IMG/VR virus record: IMGVR_UViG_3300004242_000170
Span: 1-30,566 of that record
Source of the DNA: a virus
Length of the DNA: 30,566 nt
Reading direction: 5' to 3' (one strand)
Below the pieces are notes generated by a model that was not told where the DNA came from, did no database searches, and worked only from the letters and a program-made list of their open reading frames with translations. The translations under genes were made by a program, and so were the position numbers. This document shows, piece after piece, positions 3,623-15,855 of this stretch. Each line of letters starts with the position of its first letter. Position 1 is the first letter of the stretch.

Positions 3623-4015
3623 TCAATCCCCCACGAAATCCCCCGGCTCGAGCCCGTCCCTCTTGCCCCAGTACAGCCACCCACCGACACGCACCCCAGC
3701 GTACATCGCCCAGCGGCGCACCAGACCGACGCCGGCACGCTCCAGCGCTTCCCGGAACAGCCCGTCGGCCTCCTCCCGGGTCGTTTCCTTCCGGCAGTAG
3801 AGCCAGTCGTGCAGCACGGCTGGCTGCCGCGACTCGTCGTTGCTGTCGAAGATCTGCCGCAGCAGCGCCGGGATGCTGGCAAGGTCGGTGATAAAGCCGG
3901 CCGGCACCGTGATCGATCGGCCGGCGCGTGGCGTGTAGGTGATCGCCGTCAGCAGCAGCCACTCGTCTGGCCTGTGGGCCAGCAGGTCAAGCGGGCCGGA
4001 AAATCCAGTGTTCAT
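3623..4015 (-). CDS. DUF1353 family protein
   Basis: A 130-aa protein of the DUF1353 type, found at the end of lysis modules in many Pseudomonas and enteric phages; its function is unknown. Family features are the central block I-T-V-P-A-G-F-I-T-D-L-A-S-I-P, the L-H-D-W-L-Y segment with conserved His-Asp, and R-E-E-A-D-x-L-F. The ATG at 4015 overlaps the endolysin stop (ATGA) and has GGAGG 7 nt upstream, so the two genes are translationally coupled. It is the last clear gene of the late operon. Confidence 0.8.
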   Translation of the reverse strand: MNTGFSGPLDLLAHRPDEWLLLTAITYTPRAGRSITVPAGFITDLASIPALLRQIFDSNDESRQPAVLHDWLYCRKETTREEADGLFREALERAGVGLVRRWAMYAGVRVGGWLYWGKRDGLEPGDFVGD

Positions 4016-4554
4016 GCCAGCACCTCCTTCGCCCTGCCCCACAGCTCCAACCGGTCGGCCAGGCCGTTCAGCCCGCCGTTGATGCGGCGCGTGATTCGCT
4101 CGAAGTCTCCGGCGTCGGCCAGTGCATTCAGCCCCTTCGACTCCCAGAACCAGGCCGCAGATTCGGCCGCCCATTGCGGCTCCTCGAGCAGCTCCGGCGT
4201 TTGCAGCAGTCGCTCGTCGCAGAACAGGGCCAGGCTGCAGGACCGGTAGTTCGTGCGCCCGGTGATCTGGATCAGCCCGCGCCCGCGGTAGCGCTGGCCG
4301 TCACCGTCGGCGGCCGGGGTATTGCCGAGGCGCGTGGCGAGCGCGCCCGTGTCGTAGTCTGCGCCGCTGGCCAGCTCGCGGACGTAACGCAGCTGTCCGG
4401 ACTCATGGCCGACCTGCGCCAGGAACGCCGCGACTCGGCGTGGCGTGTTGATCGCGCGGCGGGCCATCGCCGTGTTGAGCGCAGAGACGAAAACGCCGGC
4501 TCGGCGGCCGGCGTTGGGCAGGATCTGCAGCAGTTGCTGCTCGGTGATTGGCAT
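4012..4554 (-). CDS. Endolysin, glycoside hydrolase family 19
   Basis: A 180-aa GH19 (chitinase-like) muramidase expected to cut the peptidoglycan glycan chain at lysis. The catalytic pair is visible as E51 in G-H-E-S-G and E60 in Y-V-R-E, followed by the substrate-cleft motif R-G-x-G-L-I-Q-I-T-G-R at about residues 90-100. No signal peptide or SAR helix is seen, so it needs a holin to reach the wall; the holin candidate is at the other end of the late region (30285 onward). Start chosen at ATG 4554 with GGAGA 7 nt upstream; a longer open frame to 4635 would run through a terminator hairpin and is rejected. Confidence 0.9.
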   Translation of the reverse strand: MPITEQQLLQILPNAGRRAGVFVSALNTAMARRAINTPRRVAAFLAQVGHESGQLRYVRELASGADYDTGALATRLGNTPAADGDGQRYRGRGLIQITGRTNYRSCSLALFCDERLLQTPELLEEPQWAAESAAWFWESKGLNALADAGDFERITRRINGGLNGLADRLELWGRAKEVLA

Positions 4555-4572
4555 TGGGGATCTCCAGAAACG

Positions 4573-4595
4573 AAAAAGCCCGCATGGCGCGGGCT
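4573..4595 (-). terminator. Intrinsic terminator before the endolysin gene
   Basis: On the minus strand GCCCGC-GCCAT-GCGGGC is followed by TTTTT. It ends about 18 nt before the endolysin ATG, placing the hairpin directly 5' of its ribosome-binding site. Confidence 0.75.
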
Positions 4596-4716
4596 GGGGA
4601 TTCAAATAGCTTGGGTGAAGCTGTGTCGCCATCATTGGCGGCTGTCGAGGCCTCCCCGCACGCGCAACCAGCTTGAACAGAAAGTAATTCGAGGCATGGG
4701 TTATCTCCGTGAAAAT

Positions 4717-7729: not shown

Positions 7730-8076
7730 CAGAGCATCCTGAAGGCGATCAAGCGATAGACGCCATTGGCGTAGCTTTTGGTGGACGTATTGCCCGGCGT
7801 GGAGCGACGCAACGTAATCACATTGGACGTGACCGGATAAATATACGGGAGGGGCGGAACTCCGTATCCGTCTTCCGGATCATATGCGCCCGGCGTCTCC
7901 AAGAAGATGCAGAACACGCAGGTGGATGGATCGAACCCGCTAACTGTGTAGGAGACTTCCGCATCAAAGTTGATACCGGTCCAGTCCAGAGTTGTATTGA
8001 ATATGACTTCGTAGGTGAAGTCAGCCGAGTTAAGGATCACTGTCCCGCTTTCATCGTAAACCTTGAGCCCGAACAT
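7729..8076 (-). CDS. Phage tail protein of the MFGL type, 115 aa
   Basis: A 115-aa beta-rich protein beginning M-F-G-L-K-V-Y-D-E-S-G-T-V-I, followed by N-S-A-D-F-T-Y-E. It overlaps the stop of J (TAATG) and the start of the 218-aa paralogue (TGATG), so all three are coupled. Position and N-terminal similarity suggest a small tail-tip or fibre-attachment component. No further function can be assigned. Confidence 0.7.
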   Translation of the reverse strand: MFGLKVYDESGTVILNSADFTYEVIFNTTLDWTGINFDAEVSYTVSGFDPSTCVFCIFLETPGAYDPEDGYGVPPLPYIYPVTSNVITLRRSTPGNTSTKSYANGVYRLIAFRML

Positions 8077-11000
8077 TATGACAAGGCCCCCAGCTCGACC
8101 CGCAGGGTATTATTGGAGTCGTAGACATAGAATCCGCTGTTATTTATGAGCGTGTGCCCCTGCCCCCCTACGCTGCCGTTGATTTCAAACATGCCATCCT
8201 TGCCCAGTCTCCATCCAGTCTGGCCCGCGACGTAGTTTGTCGACTGCAGGGCCGTGGCGATCTTGGCCATGTCGATGGTGCCGTCACCGATGATTGCCGA
8301 GTTGATGAACACCTGGCCGCCCTGGATCACGAAGGGCGTGGTGATCTGGCCGTTCTCGACGTTGATGACGGCAAAGCGATCAGCCTGAAACAGAGCCTGG
8401 CTCTGCATCCCTTCCGGGGTGTTTTCGATGCCGATGCCCATGCCGGCGGCGTAGTACTGGCCGTCCTGGGTGATGCCGAGCTTGACGCTCCACATCGCCG
8501 ACAGCTCGCCATCCAGAGTCGCCAAAGCCTCGCTGGTCTGCTGGATCGCCGCCGAGTTGCTCCCGGCCACTGCCTGCACCGTGTCGATCCGCGACGACAG
8601 CGCGCTGACCGCATCGGCTCGGGCCTCCGTTTCGGACTGGAAGGCTGCCGAAACCGCGCCGATGGCCGCATCGGCCTGGTCCACCCGCTTGGCCACCGCC
8701 AGGGTGTCGGAAGCCGCCGCAGACTGGATCGACCAGACCCCCGCCATCACCGTCGTGGAGCCCGCCATCTGCATCGTAGAGCCGGCCATGGGTGGGTTGA
8801 CCTGCGCGTACACGCCGTCCGTCTTTTCGCTGACGGCCTGGATATCCTCCTCCGTCTCGGTGACTCGCGTGTCCAGAGCGGTCACGGCAGAGGCCTCCGC
8901 CTTGTTCGCCATGGTGCTCTGCAGGTTGGTGATCGCACCGCTCTGGCTGCTGATCTCATCCTCTGCCGCGGTGACCCGAGTGCTCAGGACGCTCACGGCC
9001 AAGGCATCGGCTTTGCCCGCTACGGTGTTTTGCAAGCCCGTGATGGCGCTGCTTTGGCTGGTGATCTCGTCCTCCGCAGCGCTGACCCGGGTGTCCAGAG
9101 CCGTAACGGCCGAAGCGTCAGCCTTGCCATTCAGCGTCGACTGGACGCCATCCAGCGTACTGGCCTGGGCGATCAGCTCGTCCTCGGCTGCGTCCAGCCG
9201 CGTCTCGGTCTGCGTGACCCGGGTGGCCAGGCCATTCGCATCGCTGACCACCTGGCCGATATCCAGCCAGTACGTGGCGTTGGGTGGCGAGCTGTTGACC
9301 GGCACGTCCTGGACGGCCTGGTACAAGCGCTTCCCCGATCTGACCGTGTCTCCCTCGACATAGGTCGAGTCCGGGTCGTACTCGATGGCACCGGCCTGCT
9401 CGGCAACGGTATCGATCTGCTCCTGCAGCGCGCTCGTGGCCTGGTTCAGCCGCTCGTTGACCGATCCCGGTAGGCCGGCGGGGCCGTCGATCAGATCGAT
9501 GCGCTCGGCCAACTGCTGGGCCAGCTCGGTCTCGCCGATCTGGTCGGCCAGATAGCCGAGGATCTCGGTAGCGGCGGCGCTCGACTGCCCCATCACCCAG
9601 TCCGACCACGGCCCGAGGTTGCCGCTCCGGTCCACCAGGCGCGCCCGGAAATGCAGCGTGACGGCCGCCGACAGGCCGGTCAGCGTGTGGCTGTTGGTCG
9701 GGTAGGCATAGTCGCCCAGGTGCAGGGCGCCCTCCTCGGCCGGCGTCGTGTGGTACTGGATCTCGGTGCGCTGGGTGTCCTCGGCGCCTTCCGGAAAGCC
9801 CCAGTCGAGCCGGATGCCGAGCACCAGCGGCGTGGCCGTCAGGTAGGCCACCGCCGGCGGCGCGCCGGTCTTGCCGGTCAGCTCGGTTTCGGCGCTGTAG
9901 GCCAGCGCCGAGGCCACCTCCATGACATTGATCGCCCGCACGCGCACGAGGTAGCGGCCGGCGTAGATGCCGCGGACCTCGAAGCCGAGCGCCGAGGTCC
10001 GCGGCACCGATACCCAGTCGCCGCTGTCCTTGCGCCACTCCGCGGTGTAGGCGACCGCGCCGACTGCCGAAGCCCATGAAACCCGCATCGTGGTGATGGC
10101 GAGGCCCTGGTCGACGCGGGTGTAGCTGTCGATCGTGACGCCCGTCGGCGGCGCCTGCACGCCCGGCGGAATCACCGAGATTGGCCGTTCCTCGAGGCGC
10201 GCCCCGGTGTCCACCGCGGCGTACTTGCCCGGGTCGTGCTGGATGGCGGTGATCTCGTAGATCCCCGGCTTCGGACGACCGATGCCCATCACCCGGAACT
10301 GCTGGGTGACCAGCTCGACGGCATCGATCGTCCAGACAGCCTGGACCCTCGGGGTCTCGCTGTAGGCAGTGGTGACGGTCACCACGCGCCCAGCCACGCT
10401 TTCCACGGTGCGGCCTTCGGCCTTGCCGCTGGGCAGGTTGAGCACCAGCCGGTCGCCGGGTAGCACCTGGGTATCGCGGTCGAGGGTGATCTGCAGGCCC
10501 GACACGGCGGCGATGCGGCCACCCAGCGGACGACCAGCCAGCAGCTCGTCGGCCACGCCGATGATCCGGCCCGGCAGCGGGATCTGTCCGTCCAGGCCCA
10601 CGCTGAAGCTTACCGTGCGGTCGCGACGGTTGGTCAGCAGCGCCCAGCGTCCGCGGCGATTTGCTTCGCTGCGCCGGGTACAGCCGATGGCGGTCAGCTC
10701 GAGCTGGTTGACCCCGTAGCGGCGCACCAGGGCAGTGTCGGAGACCGGCTCCACCTCGCTCTGGTAGCCGTTGTCCGGATTGTCGTAGCTGACCAGCGCC
10801 TGGCTGTAGCGGGTCTTCTCGGAGGCCGAGGCGTAGACGAAGCGCCCATCGATGACGTTCGCCCGGGTATAGACATAGTCGATGTCGCGCGGCATGTCGG
10901 CCATGGCGACCATCTGCGAGTTCGCCCAGTAGCTCATGCCGCGGAAGATCGCCGACAGGTCGCGCAGCACGGTCCAGGCCTCGGTGCGGCTCTGGAAATA

Positions 11001-12005
11001 CACGTTGCAGGTGAAGCGCGGCTCCTGGCCCCCTTTCCCGTCCGGTACCCGTTGGTCGCAGTACTGGGCGATCTGGTAGAGGTTCCATTTGTCGACCTGC
11101 GCGGCGCCGATCCGACGGCCCAGGCCGAAGCGCTCGGAGAGCACGATGTCGTACCAGACCCAGGCCGGATTGTCGGTCCAGGCCCACTGGAAGGTGCCGT
11201 CCCAGATGCCGGTGTAGGCGCGGGTTTCCGGGTCGTAGTTGCTCGGCACTCGGACCACCCGCCCGCGGGTCTCCACGGCAATCTGCGGGATGTTCTGGAA
11301 CTGCGAGGCGTCGAACTCGACGAACAGCAGCGCGGTGTTGGGATAGCGCAGCTTGCTGTCGATGACTTCGGTGAGCGCCTGCACGCGCATGGTGTCGGCG
11401 ACCTTGTTGTTGTCCTGGTTGGCGGTCAGCCGGCGCACACGGATCTGCCAGCCGCTGGTGGCCGCCGGCAGGTCGATACGGTGGCTGCGCTCGTAGAGGC
11501 TGGTGGTCTTGGTATCGAGGGTATAGGTCGCCACCTGCTGGTAGGCACCGCCGTCGGTCGCCACGTCGAGGGCGTAGTCGATCCGGTAGCCGACGATGTC
11601 GCCGTTGTCCTTCTGCTGCTGCAGGGCCGGCCAGGCCAGGCGGATCCGCACCGCGGAGAGCTGGGTATTGGTGACGGCGCGTACCCAGGGCGTGTCGCTG
11701 CGCAGCTCGATGCCGACGGCGAGCTCGTTGTCGACGCTCGGCATCCCGGCGATGTGCGTCTGCTCCACCGTACCTGGGCGGAACTCCCAGCTGACGCCGC
11801 TGAAGTTCTGAGTGCCGTCGGCAGCCTCGATGGGCGTGCCGTCGAGGTAGATGTCCTTGGCGGTGAGGCCGCCGGCGAACTCGCCCTCTCCCAGAGCCAG
11901 CAGGATCTTGGCGTAGGCGGTGGACTGGATATCGTCCGGGGCCTCCTTCGGCTGACGGGGGCTCGACGCGCCGGCCTTGCGGCCACGGATCTGGACTGCG
12001 CTCAT
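8076..12005 (-). CDS. J: Tail tip / host-specificity protein J
   Basis: The 1309-aa central tail-tip protein (lambda gpJ family), which caps the tail tube and contacts the receptor. The N-terminal half is the conserved tip-J body, starting M-S-A-V-Q-I-R-G-R-K-A. Fibronectin-III-like segments follow at about 640-850, then a small carbohydrate-binding-like module near 878-917 (Y-V-E-G-D-x-V-R-S-G-K-x-L-Y-x-A). Residues about 925-1060 contain three to four 37-residue coiled-coil repeats, and the C-terminus is DUF1983-like (T-P-F-V-I-Q-G-G-Q-V-F-I-N-S-A). ATG 12005 has AGGAA about 7 nt upstream; the frame stays open to 12050, but that would start inside a terminator. The usual I-J adjacency is broken by a 2.8-kb accessory cassette. 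Confidence 0.95.
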   Translation of the reverse strand: MSAVQIRGRKAGASSPRQPKEAPDDIQSTAYAKILLALGEGEFAGGLTAKDIYLDGTPIEAADGTQNFSGVSWEFRPGTVEQTHIAGMPSVDNELAVGIELRSDTPWVRAVTNTQLSAVRIRLAWPALQQQKDNGDIVGYRIDYALDVATDGGAYQQVATYTLDTKTTSLYERSHRIDLPAATSGWQIRVRRLTANQDNNKVADTMRVQALTEVIDSKLRYPNTALLFVEFDASQFQNIPQIAVETRGRVVRVPSNYDPETRAYTGIWDGTFQWAWTDNPAWVWYDIVLSERFGLGRRIGAAQVDKWNLYQIAQYCDQRVPDGKGGQEPRFTCNVYFQSRTEAWTVLRDLSAIFRGMSYWANSQMVAMADMPRDIDYVYTRANVIDGRFVYASASEKTRYSQALVSYDNPDNGYQSEVEPVSDTALVRRYGVNQLELTAIGCTRRSEANRRGRWALLTNRRDRTVSFSVGLDGQIPLPGRIIGVADELLAGRPLGGRIAAVSGLQITLDRDTQVLPGDRLVLNLPSGKAEGRTVESVAGRVVTVTTAYSETPRVQAVWTIDAVELVTQQFRVMGIGRPKPGIYEITAIQHDPGKYAAVDTGARLEERPISVIPPGVQAPPTGVTIDSYTRVDQGLAITTMRVSWASAVGAVAYTAEWRKDSGDWVSVPRTSALGFEVRGIYAGRYLVRVRAINVMEVASALAYSAETELTGKTGAPPAVAYLTATPLVLGIRLDWGFPEGAEDTQRTEIQYHTTPAEEGALHLGDYAYPTNSHTLTGLSAAVTLHFRARLVDRSGNLGPWSDWVMGQSSAAATEILGYLADQIGETELAQQLAERIDLIDGPAGLPGSVNERLNQATSALQEQIDTVAEQAGAIEYDPDSTYVEGDTVRSGKRLYQAVQDVPVNSSPPNATYWLDIGQVVSDANGLATRVTQTETRLDAAEDELIAQASTLDGVQSTLNGKADASAVTALDTRVSAAEDEITSQSSAITGLQNTVAGKADALAVSVLSTRVTAAEDEISSQSGAITNLQSTMANKAEASAVTALDTRVTETEEDIQAVSEKTDGVYAQVNPPMAGSTMQMAGSTTVMAGVWSIQSAAASDTLAVAKRVDQADAAIGAVSAAFQSETEARADAVSALSSRIDTVQAVAGSNSAAIQQTSEALATLDGELSAMWSVKLGITQDGQYYAAGMGIGIENTPEGMQSQALFQADRFAVINVENGQITTPFVIQGGQVFINSAIIGDGTIDMAKIATALQSTNYVAGQTGWRLGKDGMFEINGSVGGQGHTLINNSGFYVYDSNNTLRVELGALS
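8850..9231 (-). repeat. 111-bp in-frame tandem repeats encoding a coiled coil in J
   Basis: Three to four units with 111-bp period (boundaries near 9120, 9009 and 8898). Each encodes 37 residues with the pattern A-x-A-x-A-V-x-x-L-x-T-R-V-x-x-A-E-D-E-I, then S-x-Q-S-x-A-I-T. The first unit is more diverged and slightly shorter. Heptad-compatible spacing suggests a trimeric coiled-coil stalk. Confidence 0.8.
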
Positions 12006-12023
12006 GGGGTTTCCTGCGGGAAC

Positions 12024-12048
12024 AAAAAAGCCCAGCGCAGGGCTGGGC
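12024..12048 (-). terminator. Intrinsic terminator immediately before J
   Basis: GCCCAGC-CCTGC-GCTGGGC followed by TTTTTT on the minus strand, ending 18 nt before the J ATG. Confidence 0.8.
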
Positions 12049-12058
12049 ATCAGTGAAC

Positions 12059-12081
12059 AAAAACCCCGCCGAAGCGGGGCT
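12059..12081 (-). terminator. Intrinsic terminator after the antirepressor gene
   Basis: CCCCGC-TTCG-GCGGGG followed by TTTTTG on the minus strand. It forms a tandem with the hairpin at 12024-12048 and isolates the arc-ant transcript from J. Confidence 0.8.
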
Positions 12082-12143: not shown

Positions 12144-13091
12144 CTAGATCAGGTCGGGTTTTTTGATGACGTATTGCTGTGGCGACTCAAAGTTGCGTCT
12201 GAGGCTTTCAATCACGCGGTGCATTTGAGCCAGCTTGTTGCGATAGGTGCGGACTTCCCACCAGGCGGCGGCAACTTCATAGCCGGCCCTGGTCAACCTG
12301 GTCAGGATCAGCTCGCAAGGAGATTCGGCCGGATCGACAAGATCCAACGGATAAACATCCAGGAAATCGGTGTGCTCGTTGCGGTGGTGCTGCATCCCTG
12401 GCCGGCGGCCGGACAAATAGTCGACCGGGAAGTGGATGTCGAGGCGAGTTGCTTCCACCGGCTTTTCGCGCTCGATCCACTCGCCCTCGATGGCGTAGGC
12501 CGCGACGAAATTGCAGGCGGCATCGAAGTCCTTCGCCAAGATCAGCTCAGTGCGCGGCACATTGAACCGGGTGTGCAGGCGACTGTGCATCGTGTGGATG
12601 AAGCTGCGCCGACGGTCCTTCCGAACGATGGCCGCTTTCTGGCGGATCACACCGTTGAGGGCGGTCAACTCGGTAACGCCGATGGCTGCGTCGAGCAAAG
12701 TGCCCATCTTGCCGCCGACGTCTTCGTACCGGCCGTGCTTGCGGATCGCTGGAAGAACTTCGGCGGTGACCCACTTTTTGAAGCGCTTTGCTTCTGCCTT
12801 TCGACTGCGAAGGATCGCCGAGTAGAGGCCGGACTCGTTGATGACCAGCATTTGCTGATCGACGGTTCCAAACTCGCCATGCTGATTGCTGGAGGGGGTC
12901 TGCACAATTGACAGACCCCGTTCGTCATCGTCGAGATGACGAGTCATAGCGGATGCTTCGCTGTATTCGAGGACCGCGGCTACGTCGTTAGCGACGAACC
13001 ACGGCTGATCATCGATCAGCATGGCGCGCACCGGCTTCTTGCCGAAGTCGAAGGGGATGATCTTGGCTGCTGCTGTGCTATTCTTGCTCAT
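12144..13091 (-). CDS. BRO-N domain antirepressor (Ant-like)
   Basis: A 315-aa protein with an N-terminal BRO-N domain (about residues 10-105): I-I-P-F-D-F, then W-F-V-A-N-D-V-A-A-V-L-E-Y, V-I-N-E-S-G-L-Y-S-A-I-L-R-S and F-K-K-W-V-T-A-E-V-L-P-A-I-R-K-H-G. The C-terminal half has a basic helical segment (V-R-K-D-R-R-R-S-F) of the sort seen in phage antirepressors. Such proteins inactivate a lysogenic repressor by binding it. It lies just downstream of an Arc-like gene, as ant does in P22 immI. ATG 13091 is chosen (AGGA 10 nt upstream). In-frame ATGs at 13100 and 13166 are alternatives; the last begins next to the Arc-like stop. The start region is covered by a predicted antisense RNA. Confidence 0.85.
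   Translation of the reverse strand: MSKNSTAAAKIIPFDFGKKPVRAMLIDDQPWFVANDVAAVLEYSEASAMTRHLDDDERGLSIVQTPSSNQHGEFGTVDQQMLVINESGLYSAILRSRKAEAKRFKKWVTAEVLPAIRKHGRYEDVGGKMGTLLDAAIGVTELTALNGVIRQKAAIVRKDRRRSFIHTMHSRLHTRFNVPRTELILAKDFDAACNFVAAYAIEGEWIEREKPVEATRLDIHFPVDYLSGRRPGMQHHRNEHTDFLDVYPLDLVDPAESPCELILTRLTRAGYEVAAAWWEVRTYRNKLAQMHRVIESLRRNFESPQQYVIKKPDLI
13076..13084 (+). promoter_or_regulatory. Extended -10 promoter for predicted antisense RNA
   Basis: TG-C-TATTCT on the plus strand inside the 5' end of the antirepressor gene; TATTCT matches TATAAT at four of six positions and the TGn extension is present. No good -35 is seen at 16-18 bp. Initiation would fall near 13091. Confidence 0.4.
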
Positions 13092-13164
13092 GACGTTCAT
13101 TTCCTGCTCAGGTTTGACGTTGTCTTCCGAAGCCCTGGCGTCTCGTACACGCTGGGGCTTTTTC
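13091..13164 (+). ncRNA. Predicted sar-like antisense RNA over the arc-ant junction
   Basis: A plus-strand transcript from the extended -10 to the terminator at 13130-13164 would be about 75 nt and complementary to the antirepressor start codon, its ribosome-binding region and most of the gap after the Arc-like gene. Phage P22 makes a 68-69-nt RNA (sar) at exactly this place that represses ant translation. Position, size and terminator are seen in the sequence; transcription and function are inferred. Confidence 0.5.
13130..13164 (+). terminator. Plus-strand intrinsic terminator in the arc-ant gap
   Basis: The left arm AAGCCCTGGCGT (13130-13141) pairs over 12 positions (two G-U) with ACGCTGGGGCTT (13149-13160) around a 7-nt loop, followed by TTT after the terminal TT. 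On the minus strand the same hairpin has no U-tract, so termination is expected only in the plus direction. Confidence 0.7.
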
Positions 13165-13167
13165 ATT

Positions 13168-13332
13168 TCAGGCTGTTGCCTGCTCGCGTTGCTCATCTTC
13201 CTGCATCGCCTTTTCCAAGATTTTCCCAATCAGCCAATTCTGGCTGCGCTCTTCTTGCGAAGACTTTCGCTCCAGCCATGCCTTAAGCCCCGACGGCACC
13301 CTAATCTTCACTTGTGCTGCTTGGTTTCTCAT
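13168..13332 (-). CDS. Arc-like ribbon-helix-helix repressor, 54 aa
   Basis: A 54-aa protein, almost the exact size of P22 Arc (53 aa). The RHH fold is apparent: beta strand V-K-I-R-V-P (residues 8-13), helix 1 S-G-L-K-A-W-L-E-R-K, then R-S-x-N-W-L-I-G-K-I-L-E-K-A-M. Residues K9 and R11 should contact operator DNA in the paired strand. It is the first gene of the transcript leading into the antirepressor and starts 20 bp from an operator palindrome. By analogy with Arc it would repress its own promoter and so limit antirepressor synthesis. Start ATG 13332 has GAGGAA about 6 nt upstream. Confidence 0.85.
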   Translation of the reverse strand: MRNQAAQVKIRVPSGLKAWLERKSSQEERSQNWLIGKILEKAMQEDEQREQATA

Positions 13333-13347
13333 GATTTCCTCGCCAAT

Positions 13348-13377
13348 TTGCGGACCTAAATGGTCCGAACAAATAAT
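13348..13377 (+). promoter_or_regulatory. Predicted promoter of the Mnt-like gene
   Basis: Plus strand TTGCGG (13348-13353), an 18-bp spacer containing O1, then AATAAT (13372-13377). The -10 overlaps that of the opposing arc-ant promoter, so the two promoters should interfere directly. Confidence 0.45.
13352..13366. promoter_or_regulatory. Operator O1, palindrome for the RHH repressors
   Basis: GGACCTAAATGGTCC, with GGACC/GGTCC half-sites. It sits between the proposed -35 and -10 of the mnt-side promoter and over the start site of the arc-ant promoter. Confidence 0.75.
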
Positions 13378-13402
13378 GGACCTAACAGGTCCATTGCGTC
13401 AA
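13373..13402 (-). promoter_or_regulatory. Predicted arc-ant promoter
   Basis: Minus strand TTGACG (13402-13397), an 18-bp spacer containing O2, then CATTAT (13378-13373). Initiation is predicted near 13366, inside O1, giving a leader of about 33 nt to the Arc-like ATG. Confidence 0.55.
13378..13392. promoter_or_regulatory. Operator O2, palindrome for the RHH repressors
   Basis: GGACCTAACAGGTCC, extendable to TGGACCTAACAGGTCCA, a perfect inverted repeat around a 3-bp centre. It fills the spacer between -35 and -10 of the arc-ant promoter, as the Arc operator does in P22 Pant. Its start is 26 bp from that of O1. Confidence 0.8.
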
Positions 13403-13417
13403 GAACCAATATGGTCC
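13403..13417. promoter_or_regulatory. Operator O3, palindrome for the RHH repressors
   Basis: GAACCAATATGGTCC, an imperfect version of O1 and O2. Its start is 25 bp from that of O2; it lies just upstream of the arc-ant -35 and just before the Mnt-like gene. Confidence 0.65.
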
Positions 13418-13430
13418 TAAATTCCGCCGC

Positions 13431-13748
13431 ATGAAACAGACAGACCCGCAGTTCAAGCTGCGCCTCCCGGCTGGGCTGAAGGCGCGAATAGATCAGGCAG
13501 CAGCAGACAGCCACCGCTCCCTCAACGCGGAGATCGTGGCGCGCCTGGAAGCCAGCTTTGAGTCGGCACGCGAATCGTTCGTCGTTCTGGATGAGCAGAT
13601 ATCGCCAGACAGCAGCTACACCTCCTCTGTCCAGCTCATCGGCGCACTAACCGAGGTTCAGGCGCAAATGGCGGCCCTGCAGGATCAGCTGAGAGCCGTT
13701 CACGAGAGAGAACATCAGCAGCAGCCGGAATCACCGAGCAAGGAATAA
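13431..13748 (+). CDS. Mnt-like ribbon-helix-helix repressor, 105 aa
   Basis: The N-terminal RHH domain closely resembles P22 Mnt: D-P-Q-F-K-L-R-L-P (residues 5-13; Mnt has D-P-H-F-N-F-R-M-P) and R-S-L-N-A-E-I-V-A-R-L-E (29-40). The C-terminal half (about 65-92) is a Gln-rich helix suited to coiled-coil oligomerisation; Mnt also tetramerises through a C-terminal coiled coil. It is transcribed away from the Arc-like gene across three shared operators. The expected role is to keep the antirepressor promoter off in the lysogen. A clear Shine-Dalgarno sequence is missing before ATG 13431, which suggests low expression. Confidence 0.85.
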   Translation: MKQTDPQFKLRLPAGLKARIDQAAADSHRSLNAEIVARLEASFESARESFVVLDEQISPDSSYTSSVQLIGALTEVQAQMAALQDQLRAVHEREHQQQPESPSKE

Positions 13749-13770
13749 CCCAATCAACCAAGGAGTGGCC

Positions 13771-14058
13771 ATGCCCATCTTCGACCTTATCAACTATGTC
13801 TCCCCTTGGTCCGGCACGCTCGGGGCATTCTTTGGTCTCGCCGGGGCTCTGCTGATGGCGTCAAATGTATGGCTGACGAAGTCGCAAGCTATCGAGATCG
13901 GCTTTCCAAAGATGGGAGACATCAATCCTGAAGTGATGCTTAATGACCCAAATGTGCAGGGTCTTCTGGCCCAGTCGCTACGCACAAAGATTGGAATCGC
14001 CCTTCTTGTGCTTAGCTTTGCTCTGCAGATCTGGAGTAGCTGGCCAAAGAATAGCTGA
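13771..14058 (+). CDS. Two-helix inner-membrane protein, candidate superinfection exclusion
   Basis: A 95-aa protein with two hydrophobic segments: about residues 15-37 (L-G-A-F-F-G-L-A-G-A-L-L-M-A-S) and near the C-terminus (I-G-I-A-L-L-V-L-S-F-A-L), joined by a polar loop. The ATG at 13771 has AGGAG 5 nt upstream; an earlier GTG at 13765 overlaps that site and is less likely. It lies 22 bp downstream of the Mnt-like gene on the same strand. In P22 the membrane protein gene sieA, which blocks entry of superinfecting phage DNA, is the neighbour of mnt. Sequence similarity to SieA is not apparent, so the role rests on context and topology. Confidence 0.7.
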   Translation: MPIFDLINYVSPWSGTLGAFFGLAGALLMASNVWLTKSQAIEIGFPKMGDINPEVMLNDPNVQGLLAQSLRTKIGIALLVLSFALQIWSSWPKNS

Positions 14059-14113: not shown

Positions 14114-14404
14114 ATGCAAATCAATAACATTGACAGAGCACAAATCATTAAAGATGGTATAGGCATAGCTATAAATTCAAATTATGGACTTTTTAAACTA
14201 CGACTTTCCTTATTTGACGCGCTTTCCGGGTCAGGATTAAGCGCTTCAGCTATAGCTGAACTGTTACTACCCAGGAGCGGAGAAGTAACAGAGTCATCTC
14301 TTCGCGGAATTGCTTTACTAACCGCAAAGATTGAAATGTATGATGACAATGATTTGTCAGACCTAATTGGTTACGCCATAACTATTAAAGCAATGCTACC
14401 TTGA
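14114..14404 (+). CDS. AT-rich orphan gene, 96 aa, moron-like
   Basis: A 96-aa protein of unknown function starting M-Q-I-N-N-I-D-R-A-Q-I-I-K-D and ending I-K-A-M-L-P. No membrane segment or known domain; it looks largely helical, with an acidic loop (Y-D-D-N-D) near residue 79. The ATG at 14114 has AAGGA 6 nt upstream, whereas the open frame extending back to 13943 overlaps the membrane-protein gene and is rejected. Its base composition is far AT-richer than the phage structural genes, a mark of recent acquisition. It is the third plus-strand gene after the Mnt-like repressor and may be expressed with it in the lysogen. Confidence 0.7.
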   Translation: MQINNIDRAQIIKDGIGIAINSNYGLFKLRLSLFDALSGSGLSASAIAELLLPRSGEVTESSLRGIALLTAKIEMYDDNDLSDLIGYAITIKAMLP

Positions 14405-14676: not shown

Positions 14677-14714
14677 TCACGTTCTCCTCATGCTCTCTTC
14701 ATGGGGTATGAATG

Positions 14715-14750
14715 AAAAACCCCCGAAGCCGGCCAGCTATCGGGGGTTTT
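14715..14750. terminator. Bidirectional intrinsic terminator
   Basis: CCCCCGA (14720-14726) pairs with TCGGGGG (14740-14746), with A-run and T-run on either side, so it can stop transcription both ways. It separates the accessory cassette from gene I. Confidence 0.75.
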
Positions 14751-14765
14751 GCTTTTCTGTAGGCG

Positions 14766-14790
14766 AAAAAAAAGCGCACTCGGCGCTTAC
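14766..14790 (-). terminator. Intrinsic terminator after gene I
   Basis: AAGCGC-CGAGT-GCGCTT followed by a run of T on the minus strand, about 60 nt after the stop of I. Confidence 0.7.
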
Positions 14791-14845
14791 TTAGTATTTT
14801 CCTAGGATGGCAAAGCGATGCCATTAATCCTTACTTTTTGTCCAG

Positions 14846-15448
14846 TTACATCTGGTCTTCCGCGTGGATGCCGGCGGAGATGATCGCCCCGCCGATGCGG
14901 CGCCGGCCGTACAGCACGCCGACCGGGTTGCCCTGGGCGGTGGTATTCACCGGGCCGCCGAAGGCGTAACTGGGCTTGTTGTCCGGGTCTTCGCGGGCAC
15001 CGATCCCCCGTGCTTGCGGGCTGAGCATCTGGATGACGCCGCCGATGGCCATGGAGGCACCGGTGCTCGCCAGGGCTCCGGTCAGTGCCGCCGGGGCCGC
15101 GGCCGGCATGAATGCGGACGCCGCGATCAGCGCCACGCCGAGTACGGTCTGGAAGATCCCCCCGCTCTTGCTGCCGATGATGACCGGGGCGATGCGGATC
15201 TCGTCGCGAGCACCGAATTGCAGCTCCTCCTCGCCGATGTTGCGCCGGCCGTTGAACACGGCATAGGTCAGGCCCTGCTGCTTGCTGTTGGCCAGGAAGC
15301 GCTCGAAGCCGGGGATCTGCACGCACAGCGCCCGGATGGCCTCGGCCGGGCTGGCGACGGCGAGCCGAAACTCGCGGCCGAACCGGCGCAAGGCGCCGTA
15401 CAAACGGACGGTGGTCAGAGGCTGGTGTTCTAGAGCCGAAGCGGCCAT
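14846..15448 (-). CDS. I: Tail assembly protein I (lambda gpI family)
   Basis: A 200-aa tail-tip assembly protein. The first about 95 residues form the ubiquitin-like fold typical of the family (V-R-L-Y-G-x-L-R-R-F-G-R-E-F, later N-I-G-E-E-E-L-Q). A hydrophobic Gly/Ala-rich stretch follows (about residues 98-145) and then the conserved end Y-A-F-G-G-P-V-N-T-T-A-Q-G-N-P-V and R-R-R-I-G-G. In lambda gpI acts with J, K and L in tip assembly. Start ATG 15448 has GGAGA about 7 nt upstream. It normally precedes J directly; here a 2.8-kb cassette separates them. Confidence 0.9.
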   Translation of the reverse strand: MAASALEHQPLTTVRLYGALRRFGREFRLAVASPAEAIRALCVQIPGFERFLANSKQQGLTYAVFNGRRNIGEEELQFGARDEIRIAPVIIGSKSGGIFQTVLGVALIAASAFMPAAAPAALTGALASTGASMAIGGVIQMLSPQARGIGAREDPDNKPSYAFGGPVNTTAQGNPVGVLYGRRRIGGAIISAGIHAEDQM

Positions 15449-15597: not shown

Positions 15598-15855
15598 ATG
15601 AGAGAAGGTCAGACGCAATTCCCTTATGTGCTTGTCACGGCAAGTCCCGAAGTGATCGCAAAAGCATCCGAGATATCCGTTAACGGCATTGATGAGGCGC
15701 GCGGGATTATCACCTTCGTGGCCGAACTCAGATTCGATGAGGTGATGCGAGCGCTTAGTGGGGCCGGCGGAGAGGTTGGCTTAATACAGGCAGAAAACTA
15801 CCAGCACAGCAACGCCAAAGGAGACCTTGCGCGAGCATTCAGCCATCTTGGCTAG
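15598..15855 (+). CDS. Plus-strand moron-like gene inside the tail-tip operon, 85 aa
   Basis: An 85-aa soluble protein of unknown function, transcribed against all surrounding structural genes. It has a very strong ribosome-binding site (GAGGAGGT, 5 nt before ATG 15598). The sequence reads like a small alpha/beta protein: V-L-V-T-A-S-P-E-V-I-A-K-A-S, then an acidic R-F-D-E-V-M-R-A-L helix and a Gly-rich turn. Its last 17 bases overlap the end of the convergent 100-aa gene. Position, orientation, own leader and lack of structural similarity mark it as a moron, possibly expressed in the lysogen. Confidence 0.7.
   Translation: MREGQTQFPYVLVTASPEVIAKASEISVNGIDEARGIITFVAELRFDEVMRALSGAGGEVGLIQAENYQHSNAKGDLARAFSHLG

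Follow-up and report, generated by a model that had tools for sequence, protein, structure and literature searches.

The immI region of phage P22 is a textbook switch and is known mainly from P22-like phages. It contains the antirepressor gene ant, the repressor genes arc and mnt, and the antisense RNA sar. It is established that residues on the N-terminal strands of P22 Arc and Mnt set the operator specificity of these repressors.

The 'ant morons' of P22-like phages (Villafane et al. 2008, PMC2629481) are variable, self-contained insertions into the late operon around ant, which carry changing extra genes and are always located before the tailspike gene. Here, we describe a related cassette in a stretch of viral DNA of 30,566 nucleotides (the window), where it interrupts the tail genes of a lambda-like, Pseudomonas-type prophage between I and J. 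We consider it highly likely that this cassette is an immI-type switch, or 'ant moron', that works by the mechanism proposed below. No description of this Pseudomonas-type version of immI with its antisense RNA was found in the literature searched.

The cassette and its relatives

The features of the cassette and its flanks are as follows (window coordinates).

8076-12050: flanking gene J, gpJ FNIII/tail-tip protein
12030..12079 (12079-12064 and 12048-12030), minus strand: two tandem terminators 3' of ant, ahead of the gpJ ribosome site
12144..13091, minus strand: ant, antirepressor, 315 aa (Pfam, PHROGs, hhalign to P22 Ant, structure model)
13057..13084, plus strand: predicted sar promoter inside ant, -35 ATGATC (13057-13062) and extended -10 TGC TATTCT (13076-13084)
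13089..13165 (about), plus strand: sar-like antisense RNA across the arc-ant junction (covariance model R1, Rfam, covariation)
13168..13332, minus strand: arc-like RHH repressor, 54 aa, recognition strand AQVKIRVP (Q-K-R)
13352..13366, no strand: predicted operator O3, GGACCTAAATGGTCC, in the place that O_mnt takes relative to the promoter in P22
13373..13402, minus strand: predicted arc/ant promoter, TTGACG - 18 bp - CATTAT (consensus scan)
13378..13392, no strand: predicted operator O2, GGACCTAACAGGTCC, within the arc/ant promoter, where O_arc lies in P22
13403..13417, no strand: predicted operator O1, GAACCAATATGGTCC, imperfect, on the mnt side
13431..13748, plus strand: mnt-like RHH repressor, 105 aa, recognition strand PQFKLRLP (Q-K-R), long C-terminal part
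13771..14058, plus strand: cargo gene 1, small membrane protein with two hydrophobic helices, start ATG 13771 or GTG 13765
14114..14404, plus strand: cargo gene 2, an AT-rich ORF of 96 aa, function unknown, 38% GC vs 62.5% for the window
14772..14788, minus strand: terminator after gene I, bounding the other side of the cassette
14846-15448: flanking gene I, Lambda_tail_I match

The preliminary description of this DNA had proposed a P22 immI/sieA-like cassette of four genes at 12144-14058, between tail genes I and J. ORF calls together with Pfam and PHROGs bear out all four genes at the claimed place and on the claimed strands, and family matches of the flanking genes confirm the position between I and J. 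An Arc-type RHH protein is encoded directly before ant (13332-13168, then 13091-12144, both on the minus strand), and the mnt-like gene is divergent from arc-ant, all inside the late genes. The likeness to P22 immI turned out stronger than had been claimed, as it extends beyond gene order, orientation, and late-gene placement to the antisense RNA at the arc-ant junction, the operator positions relative to the arc/ant promoter, a terminator after ant, and the middle region of Ant. The gene set, the RNA homology, the operator geometry, and the matching recognition residues are all seen in the sequence itself. On the other hand, the window phage has a lambda-like tail with the insertion between I and J, whereas the P22 cassette is located before the tailspike gene. 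The terminators on both sides of the block, which had been absent from the preliminary description, are as expected of a self-contained insertion (moron). At some distance, the minus strand of the window encodes a chitinase-type (GH19) endolysin (4012-4635), which adjoins a DUF1353 protein (3623-4174).

A synteny search and profile searches of the four proteins had been suggested as checks. The latter matched Bro-N and Arc/Mnt, but not SieA, and the former found RHH(-) | RHH(+)-Ant(+) to be a repeated arrangement, with 50 loci counting the window and 41 distinct junctions among them. The combination is not unique to the window phage. This type of 'ant moron', built like immI, occurs in many Pseudomonas prophages as well as in the phages PS-1 and PfDIW6, for the most part between tail genes K and I (25 loci, including some near-duplicates); the position between I and J was seen in the window only. 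This set extends the 'ant moron' concept of P22-like phages (PMC2629481), as the insertions here occupy several positions in lambda-like Pseudomonas-type tail operons.

The two isolated phages resemble the window to different degrees. PfDIW6 gp18-gp21 comprise ant, an arc-like gene, a divergent mnt-like gene, and a cargo gene, together with a sar-like RNA, but the Ant protein carries a P22_AR_N head and the cassette is located between the tail spike and integrase genes. In PS-1, gp66-gp69 likewise bring together mnt-like, arc-like, sar-like RNA, and ant within the tail gene cluster. Here, however, the cassette precedes the large tape-measure gene, a second antirepressor gene follows, and the arc-like protein closely resembles a relative belonging to the R-Q-R class. 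By DNA, the closest annotated Ant proteins in isolated phages are the BRO-N antirepressors of PAJU2-like P. aeruginosa phages; in contrast to the window, no divergent RHH pair was recognised beside them and the sar model had no match at the ant junction.

The name 'sieA-like' is not supported. While sieA lies beside the P22 region, the window has no SieA: the membrane protein at 13771-14058 matched neither SieA in Pfam, PHROGs (phrog_7745), or BLAST against P22 SieA, nor any other Pfam or PHROGs family, and no relative was found in any fetched locus. Cargo gene 2, which had not been listed before, is perhaps a recent acquisition, and no close relatives were found outside the window. No conserved gene downstream of mnt-like could be identified across the relatives, in which the slot mostly holds unrelated genes. 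These encode NucS-type, VRR-NUC, and PD-(D/E)XK-like nucleases, a HIRAN protein, a GNAT acetyltransferase, and several membrane proteins (nuclease, HIRAN, and acetyltransferase cargo in loci L076, L022, L073, L098, and L016). The slot invites the idea of exclusion or defence genes that would be expressed in the lysogen. Relatives of an 85-aa ORF in the K-I gap of the window (15598-15855, plus strand) occur in L016/L095 and, within the slot behind mnt-like, in L082, which makes this gap look like another cargo site.

Operators and recognition residues

The palindrome GGACC-N5-GGTCC occurs only twice in the 30.5 kb. The divergent intergenic region of 98 bp contains both copies as well as a third, imperfect one. 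The summed palindrome score of these three predicted operators exceeded that of all 200 base shuffles. Two of them lie inside and just downstream of the predicted arc/ant promoter, as in P22 immI. The promoter was obtained by a consensus scan whose calls overall were at chance frequency; a TTGAC/TTGTC word is present in the intergenic regions of nearly all relatives. Relative to the -35 element, the operator centres are located at -8/+17/+43 in the window and, by the same calculation, at -9/+16.5/+43 in P22, where the last two are the annotated O_arc and O_mnt. The third operator-like palindrome distinguishes the window from P22. The geometry stands out clearly in the window and most other cassettes of the Q-K-R and Q-N/V-R classes; in the remaining classes it is less distinct.

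The 54-aa Arc-like protein matched RHH_5 alone below its cut-off (E 6e-4), and the best solved structures for its family profile were Arc and Mnt. The Mnt-like protein is recognised by PF03869 Arc (E 1.3e-11), and its profile matches the Arc and Mnt structures as well. A search with the Mnt-like protein alone returned one distant relative. The C-terminal stretch of the window protein looks coiled-coil; the C-terminal tetramerisation segment PF11423, which is present in P22 Mnt, was not found in it with Pfam. Such repressors are also hidden by their annotation: the Mnt/Arc-type proteins of P22 (L154, mnt) and PS-1 (L163, gp66 and gp67) as well as PHROG 795 and 2685 are annotated 'partition protein ATPase', a PHROG-type name that does not fit them and obscures cassettes of this kind.

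The contact triad is identical in both window repressors (Q-K-R), whereas P22 Arc has Q-N-R and P22 Mnt has H-N-R. Considering the two variable residues of the triad in 42 distinct cassettes, 61/84 positions match within cassettes, compared with 21.2 between cassettes; among 23 non-redundant cassettes, the match is 33/46 against 11.2 +/- 3.1 (0/20000 permutations). As the loci have common ancestry, these permutation figures overstate independence somewhat, but the match holds after redundancy removal. The operator words in turn track the triads (Mantel r 0.52; partial 0.36 when controlling for overall similarity, 0/5000). Since the triads match within cassettes and follow the operator words, the two repressors of a cassette probably recognise a common set of operators.

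The arrangement could also be the one known from P22, where Arc and Mnt have separate annotated operators; each window repressor would then have its own operator, and the matching residues would reflect shared ancestry. This reading, which concerns a single step of the mechanism, is possible but rather doubtful. Specificity may also depend on residues other than those of the contact triads. However, the three palindromes in the window are near copies of one sequence, and cognate Arc/Mnt-like pairs are hardly closer to each other than random pairs outside the recognition strand (0.303 vs 0.281), yet clearly more alike on the strand (0.528 vs 0.340), so that recent duplication does not explain the triad match.

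A predicted sar-like RNA at the arc-ant junction

The strongest evidence for an immI-type switch, in our rating, is a feature that the preliminary description did not contain. A predicted sar-like RNA on the plus strand covers the start codon and ribosome site of ant and ends in an intrinsic terminator hairpin (13129-13161), located between arc and ant, in which 13 pairs are followed by a T-run. The Rfam sar family RF00262 matches the window over its full length (13092-13165), but below threshold (21 vs 43 bits, E 0.83). Among ten sources the gathering threshold was passed by P22 only, and none of nine loci with the Pseudomonas-type version passed it. A new covariance model, R1, was built from 36 distinct Pseudomonas-type junctions out of the 50 collected cassettes, leaving aside P22 and PfDIW6. 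R1 matches the window at 13089-13170 with 70 bits, the window being one of the model's own sequences. It also recovers the annotated sar of P22 at its exact place with 40.3 bits and E 4.7e-7 (L154 4019-4094, annotated 4022-4091), the PfDIW6 junction with 56.6 bits, the PS-1 junction, and 15 further Ant-flanking loci outside the model, a few of which are near-duplicates. When 80 genomes of one Pseudomonas genus group were searched with the RNA model only, nine matches were obtained, seven of which immediately follow an Arc-type RHH gene and precede an antirepressor. The homology of the junction RNA to P22 sar is thus well supported by sequence comparison.

Alternatively, the hairpin might be a mere intrinsic terminator or attenuator that is not part of any regulatory antisense RNA. 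The conserved helix does have the shape of a terminator, and the two weakest of the nine RNA-only genome matches proved to be ordinary terminators. In the hairpin, 98.0% of the cells are paired, compared with 83.3% in shuffled and 33-60% in slid controls, and the covariation amounts to 0.496 vs 0.248 in shuffles (0/500). Yet G-U pairs favour the sar strand, with 437/446 paired, over the ant strand, with 384/446, and together with the U-run they assign the hairpin to the antisense orientation; there, nothing but a transcript beginning in ant could be terminated. Moreover, R1 extends from the hairpin upstream as far as the ant start codon, and its match to P22 sar is full-length. A promoter element is fixed as well: the -10 element, antisense to the first ant codons, keeps one distance in 32/38 loci, mostly with an extended TG, and P22 carries TGC TATACT at the corresponding place. 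The -35 element of this predicted promoter is poor in the window phage (3/6). Taken together, we regard a mere terminator as very improbable and retain a putative sar-like antisense RNA.

Several other RNA candidates were set aside. A second R1 match in the window (14689-14758, 22 bits) is a terminator. The sub-threshold Rfam matches to the rimP leader (14685-14793) and to RsmY, istR, and others near 12060 likewise coincide with plain terminators. In loci L158 and L159, the sar-like RNA is followed by a small ORF and then, as judged by eye, by a Rha-like antirepressor where ant would be expected, and sar-like RNAs of this type may therefore control other antirepressor types.

The antirepressor and the proposed switch

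The ant gene probably starts at ATG 13091 (315 aa), the start at 13229 merely giving the longest ORF. The protein is recognised by PF02498 Bro-N (E 5e-25; 88 bits, above the curated cut-off of 25.6) and matches phrog_245 'anti-repressor Ant' over its full length. It consists of a BRO-N head (about residues 10-120), which is confidently predicted in the structure model, and a middle region (about residues 132-218). The preliminary description had seen a BRO-N protein rather than a clear P22 Ant homologue, which was too strong, as the middle region is homologous to that of P22 and PfDIW6 Ant by BLAST and hhalign. BLAST gave 36% over 84 residues with PfDIW6 Ant, and profile comparison reached a probability of 99.5% against P22 plus PfDIW6 and 92.7% against P22 alone. 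P22 Ant is composed of P22_AR_N and P22_AR_C; in the window Ant, P22_AR_C was not found with Pfam and the P22_AR_N head is replaced by BRO-N. Otherwise similar cassettes carry P22_AR_N (PfDIW6), AntA (L067), or pRha (L071) heads. With varied heads in the relatives and a middle region held in common with P22 Ant, the exchanged unit is a domain and not the whole gene; the earlier suggestion that a part was exchanged is correct at this level, although the middle region was retained. A search of the structure model against the PDB returned nothing significant, and the named matches among viral structure models were mostly BRO-N, Ant-like, or 'repressor domain' proteins, which has no bearing on the relationship to P22. 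Some loci (L045, L039) contain a pair of Ant-like (Bro-N) matches that face each other on opposite strands over a distance of about 1 kb or less.

A survey of toxin-antitoxin pairs listed BRO-type antirepressors and noted toxicity for some proteins with an Ant domain (PMC2701414), but a toxic Ant with RHH antitoxins is scarcely credible here, as two RHH genes, an antisense RNA, and the P22 operator geometry fit a characterised lysogeny switch and no recognised toxin domain was found in Ant with Pfam.

As a lysogeny switch, the cassette most likely works by analogy with the logic of P22 (PMC11016777; also PMC2629481), from which we infer binding, repression, expression, and the target of Ant. 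In the lysogen, the Mnt-like repressor would be expressed from the plus-strand promoter, cover the operators, and shut the arc/ant promoter; the plus-strand cargo genes would probably be co-expressed with it. The antisense RNA, transcribed from within ant, would base-pair with any leaked message at its arc-ant junction and thereby block ant translation. When the arc/ant promoter is briefly free (upon infection, induction, or late read-through transcription), the Arc-like protein and Ant would be made. As the product of the first gene of the message, the Arc-like protein would then shut the same promoter and limit the pulse of Ant, and both repressors, with their Q-K-R triads, would probably compete for the same three operators. 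Ant, in turn, would bind and disable a CI/C2-type phage repressor, either its own or that of a co-resident phage, so that lytic growth is favoured. A main phage repressor gene was not found in the part of the ORFs of the 30.5-kb fragment that the scan covered. The circuit could be bistable and might control induction or superinfection, as the preliminary description had proposed.

Beyond the single locus, we favour, with some reserve, a broader model for this clade in which the two repressors compete for shared operators in a CI/Cro-like logic complemented by the antisense RNA. Triads and operators would change together, giving rise to several mutually distinct classes of secondary immunity on one platform that exchanges Ant heads and cargo.

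The full immI version with antisense RNA can now be placed in many Pseudomonas prophages and two isolated phages. Among the 42 distinct cassettes, two paralogous RHH repressors vary jointly with their operators; such a natural series offers a direct way to read a specificity code for the RHH fold. Genes by which prophages effect defence or exclusion could be sought in the cargo slots of L076, L022, L073, L098, and L016. Finally, as one control platform drives antirepressors with different heads, the cassettes may help to predict which prophages induce each other, and the switch emerges as common, modular, and testable outside P22-like phages.
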